Assembly: GCA_031270465.1 (NCBI GenBank) | Contig: JAISXP010000130.1 | Span: forward strand, 1 to 38,882 | Direction of reading: 5' to 3' | Length of the DNA: 38,882 nucleotides | Source of the DNA: Tannerella sp. | GTDB taxonomy: Bacteria; Bacteroidota; Bacteroidia; Bacteroidales; Tannerellaceae | Shown here: piece by piece, positions 21,858-38,882 of the stretch | Layout of the letters: every line of letters begins with the position of its first letter | Position numbering within the stretch: position 1 is the stretch's first letter | The notes under the pieces: generated by a model | The model's input: the letters and a program-made list of their open reading frames with translations, nothing else | What the model was told of the DNA's origin: nothing | Database searches by the model: none | Translations under genes and position numbers: made by a program

Positions 21858-21993
21858 AATGCGCGTGATGAAAACCGTCTCGCGCGAGGATGATTTCATC
21901 TCGCGCGAAGATATTTTCATCTCGCGCGAGGATGATTTCATCTCGCGCGAGGATATTTTCATCTCGCGCGAGACAGTTTTCATCTCGCGCGAG
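21858..21993. repeat. Array of palindromes with exact 21-bp spacing
   Basis: The core CTCGCGCGAG, a perfect 10-bp palindrome, begins at 21879, 21900, 21921, 21942, 21963 and 21984. Each step is exactly 21 bp. The second copy has one change (CTCGCGCGAA), and a decayed copy precedes the set at 21858. AT-rich spacers alternate between two types (containing TGATTTCA or TATTTTCA). The array lies 62 nt after the transpeptidase stop codon and ahead of the M16 promoter. Because 21 is a multiple of three, frames stay open on both strands, but no coding role is evident. Confidence 0.9.
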
Positions 21994-22165
21994 ATGGGAT
22001 TCACTTTTCGTTGGCCAAATTTAACATTCGACGAAGCAGCTTCGCTTTCCGCACGAAACACCGTAAACCGCACCGTCCGTCCCTCGCCGGGTAGCCTGCT
22101 GAATGACAGTACGGAAAAATACAAAAAAAAACAGCCCCATGTTTTTTTTACTCGCCATTAATTGC

Positions 22166-36702: not shown

Positions 36703-38223
36703 TTATTCCCATTCGATTGTGGCAGGAGGTTTGGAACTGATGTCGTAGACCACACGGTTGACGCCTTTCACCCTGTTAATGATTTCGTTCGACACTTTGG
36801 CAAGGAAATCGTACGGCAATTGCGCCCAGTCGGCCGTCATCGCATCGGTCGAAGTTACGGCGCGCAGGGCGATGGTATTTTCGTAAGTCCGTTCGTCGCC
36901 CATCACGCCGACCGACTGCACCGGCAGCAAGATGGCGCCTGCCTGCCAGACGGTGTCATACAGCCCCCATTCACGCATCAGCGAGATGTAGATGTCGTCT
37001 GCATCCTGCAAGATGCGAACTTTCTTTTCCGTGATGTCGCCGAGTATGCGAATGCCCAGTCCGGGACCGGGGAAGGGATGGCGTTTAATCAGGTGCGGCA
37101 TCATGCCCAGTTCCGTACCGACGCGGCGCACCTCGTCCTTGAAAAGCAGGCGCAACGGCTCTACCAGCTTGAGTTTCATCCTGTCCGGCAGCCCTCCCAC
37201 ATTGTGGTGACTCTTGATGACCATGCCGGTGATGGAGAGCGACTCGATTACGTCGGGGTAGATCGTTCCCTGTCCCAGCCATTTGATGTCTTTCAGTTTT
37301 TGCGCTTCTTCCTCGAAGATGTCAATAAATCCCTTGCCGATGATTTTGCGTTTTTGTTCGGGTTCCGTCACTCCGGCCAGACGACTGTAAAACCTTTCAC
37401 CGGCGTTTATCCCGACAACATTCAGCCCCAGATGCCCGTAGTCGCGCAGGACGTGTTCAAATTCGTGCTTGCGCAGCAGTCCGTGGTCTACAAAGATGCA
37501 GGTGAGGTTTTTGCCGATAGCCCTGTTCAGCAGAACGGCCGTCACGGACGAATCTACGCCGCCGGACAGCGCCAGAATCACCTTGTCGTTTCCCAACTGC
37601 GCTTTCAGTGTGGCAACCGTCGATTCGATGAACGATGCGGGTGTCCAGTCTTTCGTGCAGCCGCATACGTGGAGGAAATTGTCCAAAATGCGCATTCCGT
37701 CTTCCGTGTGAAACACTTCGGGATGGAACTGCACACCCCACGCCGGTTTGCCGTCGATGCGGTATGCGGCAATCTTCACATCGTCTGTACTTGCGATAGT
37801 CCTGAACGGCGAAGGCAACTGCGTGATGGTATCGCCATGAGACATCCAGACTTGCGAGCCACCCTTTACGCCTTTCAGTAGCGGGTCGTTGTCGTCGATG
37901 TGCGAGAGATGCGCCCTGCCATATTCGCGCACGGCGGCCGATTCGACTTTCCCGCCCGAATCGCTTGCCATCAACTGAGCGCCGTAGCATATACCCAGTA
38001 CTGGATATTTTTTTAGAATAGCGGTCAAATTCGTCCTGAACGCATTGCTGTCGCTCGTCGAATAGGGACTGCCCGAAAAGATGACGCCTTTGATGCGGTC
38101 GTCGCCTTCCGGGAAACGGTTGTAGGGCAATATTTCGCAGTATGTATTTAATTCTCTAACTCTTCGAGCAATCAGTTGAGTAGTCTGCGACCCGAAATCA
38201 AGAATAATAATCTTCTCACGCAT
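36703..38223 (-). CDS. guaA: GMP synthase (glutamine-hydrolysing)
   Basis: Makes GMP from XMP, glutamine and ATP in purine synthesis. The 506 residues contain a class I glutamine amidotransferase domain with the triad Cys79 (GICYGAQ), His167 and Glu169 (QFHPEV). The ATP pyrophosphatase domain has the PP-loop SGGVDSS at 220-226. The C-terminal dimerisation domain ends with the conserved PPATIEWE. Length and motifs are full, and the start [13 protein letters not shown] is the family's normal N-terminus. It is the first gene of a two-gene unit with the 36316 gene. Confidence 0.97.
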
Positions 38224-38246
38224 GAACGACTTGTTTTTTTAGTGCA

Positions 38247-38254
38247 CAAAGATA
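38247..38254 (-). promoter_or_regulatory. -7 box of the guaA promoter
   Basis: TATCTTTG on the minus strand, 24 nt upstream of the guaA ATG. Full match to the consensus. No purine riboswitch or other leader fits in so short a 5' region. Confidence 0.6.
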
Positions 38255-38400
38255 GAAATAATCTTTTAATTTTAGTAGAAAAACAATCCCGTCGGGTGCA
38301 ATTTAAATTGTCACGTTCCCAAAAGTCCCTATAAGACCGGCAGATGGTGATGTAATACGCAGTCTTGTTTGCCTCATGCTGCGCTTGTCGAATTTTTTCC

Positions 38401-38408
38401 TACCTTTG
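38401..38408 (+). promoter_or_regulatory. -7 box with no recognised gene downstream
   Basis: TACCTTTG matches the consensus and is directed into the region that holds only a 43-codon frame and the repeat array. It could drive that frame or an RNA reading into the array. Confidence 0.4.
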
Positions 38409-38439
38409 CTTCAGTTTTAAAATCAAACAGATTCTAAAT

Positions 38440-38571
38440 ATGGACAGTCTCTTAAACAAAATTCGGGTTATTAAAAAAACAGCATTGCTACTGCGTGGAG
38501 TTGATAACCGTCATTGCGACGGCGCAATCGGAAGCAATCCGGGCATTCATTTCCTCTGCTTTAAATCATAA
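38440..38571 (+). CDS. Doubtful 43-codon frame after an orphan promoter box
   Basis: ATG 38440 lies 31 nt after the -7 box and an AAATA-rich stretch, normal for a Bacteroidota start. The product begins MDSLLNKIRVIKKTALLLRG and ends with TAA at 38571. No family was recognised. It may be a small protein, the 5' remnant of a lost gene, or chance. The array begins 17 nt after its stop. Confidence 0.25.
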   Translation: MDSLLNKIRVIKKTALLLRGVDNRHCDGAIGSNPGIHFLCFKS

Positions 38572-38587
38572 ATTTGAATCATATTCC

Positions 38588-38757
38588 TTTCGTTTTCGCG
38601 AGATGCCCGTCTCGTTTTCGTGAGACGGCGATCTCGTTGTTGTGAGATGACCGTCTCGTCGTCGTGAGACGGTGATCTCGCCATCGTGAGATGCCCGTCT
38701 CGCGCGATCGAGATGGCCGTCTCACGAGATCGAGATGCCCGTCTCGCGAGACGGGCG
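38588..38757. repeat. Array of TCTC...GAGA inverted repeats with exact 22-bp spacing
   Basis: Units begin at 38588, 38610, 38632, 38654, 38676, 38698, 38720 and 38742, each step exactly 22 bp. Most consist of TCTCG, about 7 variable bases and GAGA (16 bp), then a 6-bp spacer such as TGCCCG or CGGTGA. The first unit has TTTCG, the seventh TCTCA, and the last is the perfect palindrome TCTCGCGAGA. The 22-bp step breaks any reading frame. The array ends 40 nt downstream of the stop of the minus-strand gene at the right edge. Confidence 0.9.
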
Positions 38758-38796
38758 CCTGGTATATCCCGAACGCCCGCGTCGCAACAGACGACT

Positions 38797-38882
38797 TTAC
38801 TTTTTCGACATCGAGGCAACATCCATAAATACAGCTTTCGCAATCGCTTCCTTCAGTTCCTCCGATTCGGCAAAACGAACTA
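38797..38882 (-). CDS. C-terminal end of a gene running off the right edge
   Basis: The minus-strand frame enters at 38882 and ends at a TAA (38799-38797). Its 27 visible residues are mostly charged and helical (FAESEELKEAIAKAVFMDVAS) and finish with MSKK. This looks like a genuine protein tail and fits an intergenic gap beginning at the array. The protein cannot be identified. Confidence 0.55.
   Translation of the reverse strand, partial: VRFAESEELKEAIAKAVFMDVASMSKK

Follow-up and report, generated by a model that had tools for sequence, protein, structure and literature searches.

A phased palindrome array at the contig edge

The window, by which we mean the whole stretch of 38,882 nucleotides that was analysed, is one entire contig (C116) of a 3.03-Mb assembly in 183 contigs; in the labels used below, G stands for a genome (G000 being the window's own), C for a contig and L for a locus. 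Near its right-hand end, two genes on the minus strand flank a row of palindromes. The first (36703..38223) was assigned from its translation and its relatives as guaA (GMP synthase); its nearest relatives lie in Bacteroidales assemblies, the best at 79% identity among the 80 loci kept. The second is cut by the contig edge, leaving its 3' end (38797..38882, stop codon TTA at 38797-38799). The 27 visible residues end in VRFAESEELKEAIAKAVFMDVASMSKK, and this C-terminus resembles that of HU-HIG DNA-binding proteins, which are paralogues of the HU/IHF fold that have expanded in Bacteroidales.

The array, a proposed row of binding sites, occupies 38588..38757 with no strand assigned, 39 bp from the stop of the truncated gene. 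It comprises seven exact GAGA-N6-TCTC dyads (starting at 38600, 38622, 38644, 38666, 38688, 38710 and 38732) interleaved with six exact TCTC-N8-GAGA dyads, and imperfect edge units, the left one starting with TTTC (38588) and the right one reading TCTC-N2-GAGA (38742). The dyad can be read in either form. In the whole window all exact GAGA-N6-TCTC matches (n = 7) fall within 38600-38745 (shuffle mean 0.48; at least seven in 0 of 100 shuffles), and all exact TCTC-N8-GAGA matches (n = 6) within 38610-38735 (shuffle mean 0.37; at least six in 0 of 100). The preliminary description had counted eight TCTC...GAGA repeats every 22 bp; the 22-bp step is indeed exact, while the count is six or seven, depending on the dyad chosen, plus the two imperfect edge units. 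Autocorrelation over 38581-38760 gave z = 12.1 at lag 22 and z = –3.9 at lag 23, and the palindrome chain reached 9.0 over seven centres, so that the array passes the criterion given in the next section by far.

Within the dyads the middle positions are imperfectly palindromic. TGnCCG and its near reverse complement take turns in the first four N6 spacers (TGCCCG, CGGCGA, TGACCG, CGGTGA), which is why TRF also reports a 44-bp period. Similarity from unit to unit is blocky and partly alternating, some units being tandem copies of one another. Past 38223 there is no closed ORF of at least 100 aa, and the array is intergenic and non-coding, as the suggestion of a non-protein function requires, though shorter frames do cross it. 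At the gathering score, Rfam gave no match at the array, its sole match in the window being a tmRNA.

Two boxes of the form TAnnTTTG, the Bacteroidetes promoter motif, were read from the sequence, one before guaA (TATCTTTG, 38247..38254, minus strand) and one pointing at the array (TACCTTTG, 38401..38408, plus strand). Continuing in the direction of the truncated gene, the first long gene reached is guaA; since it lies 365 bp from the array and has a promoter-like box of its own, we do not claim it as a target. Behind the TACCTTTG box, at 38431-38494 (plus strand), is the start of a short frame, MDSLLNKIRVIKKTALL; over these 64 bases, 52 agree with a stretch of G002 (L151). An interspersed element around GTCATTGCGACGG..GAAGCAATCC lies at 38508-38545, and like stretches occur in 10 of 41 genomes of the genus.

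A DNA search of the genus recovered the same gene end and array in G049, with 194 of 299 alignment columns identical. There the HU-HIG gene is complete, and behind it, at the position corresponding to the window array, is a 22-bp array of diverged sequence. The G049 protein matches PF18291 (HU-HIG) at 55.9 bits (cut-off 26.2) and TIGR01201 at 71.8 (cut-off 68.6), and the window fragment shares 58% identity with it over 26 residues (E = 6.2e-4). A Pfam scan of the 27-residue fragment by itself gave no match. By this comparison the truncated gene is probably the end of a full HU-HIG gene. At the G008 locus, one unit accompanies a piece of the gene's 3' end; it was considered as a clean empty site and rejected, being a mere gene fragment with one unit.

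These comparisons also bear on the remaining geometrical points of the preliminary description. It held that spacing is better preserved than sequence, and palindromes and 22-bp phase are retained while the sequences diverge. The contrary outcome that it had named, a single recent tandem duplication lacking equivalents in relatives, does not fit the blocky, alternating units or the diverged array in G049.

Arrays accompany HU-HIG genes

From the genomes of the genus, 69 distinct HU-HIG-like frames were collected, starting from the G049 protein. Lag autocorrelation was first applied to the 66 genes whose downstream sequence extended for 200 bp or more. Downstream of 44% of them, z at lag 22 exceeded 3 (mean z 2.6 at lag 22 and 1.64 at lag 23), compared with 0.6% of 694 control genes, or 1.5% of the 264 controls with at least 150 bp of intergenic DNA; the controls peak at lag 42. 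Chains of palindrome centres (best chain per gene, n = 63) exceeded the 99th percentile of controls at step 22 in 37% of genes and, weakly, at step 23 in 10%; the figures were 0-5% for steps 18-21 and 24-26, and 8% for 33 bp, or 1.5 steps.

A further set was drawn from 119 genomes searched with PF18291, 83 of them giving a match at 1e-8. Seventeen high-scoring loci and 40 picked from the match list before their flanks were seen gave 53 usable genes, mostly from outside the genus. L338 is the one gene contributed by the window's genome; five come from G145, which belongs to a different genus of the same family. A common criterion was then applied to 300 bp on both flanks: z above 3 at lag 22 or 23, or a palindrome chain above 6.5. 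In the genus it was run on genes of at least 90 bits, 66 of the 69. There, arrays were found downstream of 38/64 genes and upstream of 15/65, on either flank in 51/66 and on both in 2. In the further set, arrays were found downstream of 11/53 and upstream of 18/51, on either flank in 29/53 and on both in none. Other genes passed in 13/305 cases downstream and 10/345 upstream, and ordinary HU genes in 0/13 and 2/12. An upstream z of 108 at L392, an artefact of a run of N, was excluded from these counts. By the same criterion, 15 of the 66 genus genes and 24 of the 53 further ones have no array on either flank. The best lag was 22 in 63 of the 82 positive flanks and 23 in 11.

All five other HU-HIG genes found in the window's own genome have a passing array, with differing units. 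Relatives of HU-HIG proteins are also found in the records of plasmids and phages. Of seven plasmid records, the six other than that of Treponema were examined; among their six HU-family genes, from named Bacteroidales, weak upstream arrays passed twice in Parabacteroides distasonis and once in Segatella hominis, and the other three genes failed. Taken together, these sequence comparisons make it probable that the window array belongs to the 22-bp palindrome rows adjoining HU-HIG genes and is the cognate DNA-binding array of the neighbouring HU paralogue.

Array sequence follows protein sequence

The palindromes differ from gene to gene, and include the AAAAGGTATATACC type (L267), CCGGTACGTACCGG (L312), TATCACN4GTGATA (L338) and others. 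Across 80 arrays, 5-mer similarity correlated with protein identity (rho 0.257, reached in 0 of 300 permutations), whereas the opposite flank of the same genes gave rho 0.035; the relatedness of proteins and of flanks is controlled only in part in these comparisons. The correlation persisted when the two genes of a pair came from different genomes and had their arrays on opposite sides (rho 0.242, 0 of 1000 permutations), as well as for pairs between the genus and the further set (rho 0.188, 0 of 1000), and plain linkage is therefore an unlikely cause. At 75% protein identity, L267 (G011) and L344 (G081, from another family) have a common palindrome. The trend fades below 30% identity (51 of 300 permutations).

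A scan of 117 protein columns against array similarity, with overall identity regressed out, placed position 82 first (numbering of the L259 protein; z = 6.6), followed by 64, 6 and 4. Position 82 is the residue after the GxF motif, which we place, by eye alignment to the HU topology, at the presumed start of the beta-arm. Among pairs below 35% identity, positions 82, 6 and 4 hold signal (0, 1 and 0 of 500 permutations); column 64, second in the regressed scan, was discarded on failing there (210 of 500). Below 30% identity the three positions are weaker (18, 10 and 6 of 500). A ranking by raw difference among pairs below 35% identity gave column 4, then 122, then 82 and 6.

Arms of the form AAA..TTT were found with 12 of 19 proteins having Q82 and with 2 of 27 having R82; TTTC..GAAA arms were found with 15 of 27 R82 proteins and with none of the 19 Q82 proteins. 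The corresponding Fisher values (8e-5 and 5e-5) are a guide only, because the arm patterns were set after seeing the table and the proteins are related. With H82 (n = 15) the arrays are GC-rich, at 0.57 compared with 0.41 for the opposite flank.

Proposed mechanism

We hypothesize that each HU-HIG protein forms a two-fold symmetric dimer that binds its own palindrome. With about 3-10 copies at 22-bp steps, close to two helical turns, the dimers would be set on one face of the DNA, and such phased dimers could form a cooperative, bent nucleoprotein array. Placed just before or after the gene, the array would allow the protein to control transcription of both its own gene and the neighbouring one; in some genomes it might also control one distant locus bearing a second array of the same palindrome. 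Binding, dimer stoichiometry, bending and regulation by HU-HIG proteins are what we infer from these patterns.

A broader proposal, which we regard as evenly balanced, is that Bacteroidales genomes hold several distinct pairs of HU paralogue and palindrome array, each a private local chromatin switch. An unspecific nucleoid fold would then have evolved a recognition code, in which a beta-arm residue and the N-terminal strand read the palindrome arm, and some pairs would be tied to a second chromosomal array. Gene and array are paired in all five other HU-HIG genes of G000 and in nine of G049, some of the latter being alike.

Second arrays and neighbouring genes

In the window's genome, TATCACN4GTGATA has seven sites in the whole assembly, four beside an HU-HIG gene on C172 and three on C125 at 22-bp steps. 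By our own reading of the translations, the C125 array appears to be flanked by a gene for a TonB-type receptor and one for a TPR protein. The same pattern, in which the palindrome recurs with its phase in another array elsewhere, was found in G021 (C166 and C138) and G081 (C5 and C16), and the 9-12-kb stretches holding the distant arrays in these three genomes contain no HU-HIG frame. The G011 palindrome occurs in its own array only, that of G049 in its own array and one isolated match with three mismatches, and a search of G000 with the window's unit found no second array and one isolated match on C178. Second arrays thus exist for three of six palindromes tested, with one further array per such palindrome.

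The two TATCAC arrays of G000 (L415:2793-2900 and L414:3937-4050) have similar inverted ends, GCAAACT and AGTTTGC-like, and look as if array and ends had moved as one unit. Such ends, the occurrence of second arrays away from HU-HIG genes in three genomes and the plasmid and phage relatives noted above would all suit another reading, in which the arrays are partition-, transposition- or genome-defence-like sites for an HU-HIG complex and the second arrays are spread copies. A study of HU clades, published in Cell Cycle in 2017, reportedly ties the Bacteroidetes HU expansion to mobile elements, which also counts in its favour. Most arrays, however, remain beside their own gene, as self-control predicts; the second array of G021 lies just ahead of a TAnnTTTG box and a gene start; and no recombinase or partition family is prominent among the 25 families listed for 49 next genes. 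We regard this reading as unlikely, and return to regulatory sites as the preferred one.

The next-gene scan covered 49 of 51 frames of at least 100 aa, pooling HU-HIG genes with and without arrays. The domains found include CarboxypepD_reg-like (7), TonB plug (5), Big_2 (3), BACON (2) and leucine-rich repeats (2). That HU-HIG arrays precede genes for secreted proteins seemed likely by eye and was rejected, as signal-like next genes numbered 15/32 and 5/16 against 252/752, with no clear enrichment. Upstream arrays show no single promoter layout, the TAnnTTTG boxes lying before the array in 10 cases, inside it in 4 and after it in 8. Four genes next to HU-HIG genes start alike, with MFYVRINRIKVFDNREGFLGLFN (L306:2118-2840, L316:529-1251, L273:669-1373 and L284:859-2085), and a similar gene start is found in G008 (L148).

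Less likely readings: slippage products and RNA hairpins

The arrays could also be neutral minisatellites, slippage products that tolerate a 22-bp unit and are otherwise like the remaining tandem repeats of the genus. In favour are the abundance of such arrays in the genus, chiefly of 40-42 bp in G042, the fact that the units of an array are in part tandem copies of one another, and the single unit of the G008 fragment. Against this, arrays of the 22/23-bp class cluster beside HU-HIG genes, the peak for other genes being at 42 bp; palindromes and phase are retained despite differing sequences, and array sequence tracks the protein when the opposite flank does not. We consider neutral slippage improbable, and binding sites for the neighbouring protein remain our preferred interpretation.

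The preliminary description had also supposed that each unit could form a small hairpin as RNA. When folded as RNA, the window array gives –114.2 kcal/mol on the plus strand (z = –11.45) and –93.6 on the minus strand (z = –8.85), both far below shuffles, as is expected of any row of palindromes. Among 80 arrays, the gene-sense strand folds better in 39 and the other strand in 40 (p = 0.76). Complementarity at the two innermost positions is 0.71 and 0.70 in the 203 even-centred palindromes of 49 arrays, which leaves no room for a hairpin loop; 47 odd-centred palindromes gave 0.57 and 0.47. G.T mismatches on the sense strand (105 observed, 75.1 expected) and the mirror A.C mismatches (111 observed, 90.6 expected) are both raised. 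No intrinsic terminator was found at the array, the sole terminator-like site in 38200-38882 being at 38528-38542, outside it. The lack of a favoured strand and of a loop, and the fact that arrays occur both before and after genes, suggest sites in the DNA for a protein with two-fold symmetry.

It is thus very unlikely that the array works as RNA, in the form of a row of UTR hairpins that ends transcription or stabilises or marks the transcript: the stable folds, the position of many arrays downstream of a gene and the excess of G.T mismatches would agree with it, but neither strand is preferred, A.C is raised as well, even-centred palindromes pair to the centre, arrays also lie upstream of genes and away from the gene, and the array is without a terminator-like T run.

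Relation to known systems

The gene beside the window array is provisionally assigned to the HU-HIG family (PF18291; TIGR01201 HU_rel) through the complete G049 protein; the family descriptions consulted mention no array. HU-fold proteins are largely unspecific DNA benders, with IHF as the main exception. Plasmid iterons, which are direct repeats bound by replication initiators, likewise combine the gene of a DNA-binding protein with a helically phased row of sites of about 22 bp. The HU-HIG arrays differ from them in consisting of palindromes and in lying next to HU-fold genes, for the most part on chromosomal contigs and with no initiator seen; the neighbours read beside the window array are the HU-HIG-like gene end and guaA. 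In REPIN/RAYT systems, too, a single gene has palindromic repeats beside it and elsewhere. RAYT is a transposase, whereas the protein here has an HU fold and whole phased arrays recur, with one further array per palindrome.

Two systems of Porphyromonas gingivalis are the nearest precedents among those considered. The HU protein PG0121, described as closely similar to E. coli HU, affects transcription at the capsule locus, which has a 77-bp inverted repeat (PMC3969353). An HU-fold gene is there linked to an inverted repeat, but as described it is one large repeat and no row phased at 22 bp (PMC3969353). BrickBuilt, a minisatellite MITE, has a 23-nt repeat of one sequence in 19 copies between MITE ends (PMC4596501). 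It resembles the present arrays as an intergenic tandem repeat in a Bacteroidales genome, with varying copy number (PMC4596501). It is set apart by its single repeat sequence, HU-HIG arrays having a different palindrome for each gene, and the window unit is 22 bp.

The HU-HIG protein family is already known, and its pairing with private arrays appears to be new, a novelty that is unproven. In the literature searched, which left most subscription papers out of reach, no title or abstract dealt with arrays beside HU paralogues, and none had the HU-HIG protein family as its topic. If the preferred interpretation holds, a common but functionally dark family of paralogues in gut Bacteroidales would have a predicted target, located beside its own gene, together with a 22-bp phase and candidate specificity residues. 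Intergenic repeats of a class otherwise read as junk minisatellites would be accounted for as well.

The 21-bp array and other tandem repeats

A 21-bp array lies about 17 kb from the 22-bp array, at 21878-21994 (TRF). It belongs to a family, TCTCGCGCGAG..TTTTCA, that is dispersed in G000, with further copies at C12:72-230, C35:13946-14188 and C87:25069-25285; the 20-kb stretches around these three copies contain no HU-HIG frame. The preliminary description had joined the two arrays of the window in one related class. They part in step, neighbours and spread, and the one word that they share, TCTCGCGCGA, occurs once, in a single unit of the 22-bp array. With that and its step of 22, the 22-bp array falls outside the TCTCGCGCGAG family, and the 21-bp array looks like a different class. 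In the sampled genomes, 22/23-bp arrays accompany HU-HIG genes, and 21- and 40-42-bp arrays form a commoner background.

The 21-bp array of the window is preceded by an L,D-transpeptidase gene. TRF found no 21-bp array behind this gene at the loci of seven relatives, that of G005 ending at the gene. The related genomes G022/G007, G010, G016 and G024 have 21-bp arrays with other units. In G019 (L292:2300-2478), 8.5 copies of a 21-bp repeat, a length that leaves the reading frame intact, overlap with the L,D-transpeptidase relative, and in G016 (L230:8690-8990) a 21-bp array of 14 units has the promoter-like TACCTTTGC in its unit. A 400-kb sample of G042, a single-contig 3.0-Mb genome of the same genus (L177-L196), contains about 50 tandem arrays with a period of 40-42 (5, 21 and 24 by TRF). 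Each has a unit of its own, many with an internal palindrome, and their period corresponds to four helical turns rather than two.
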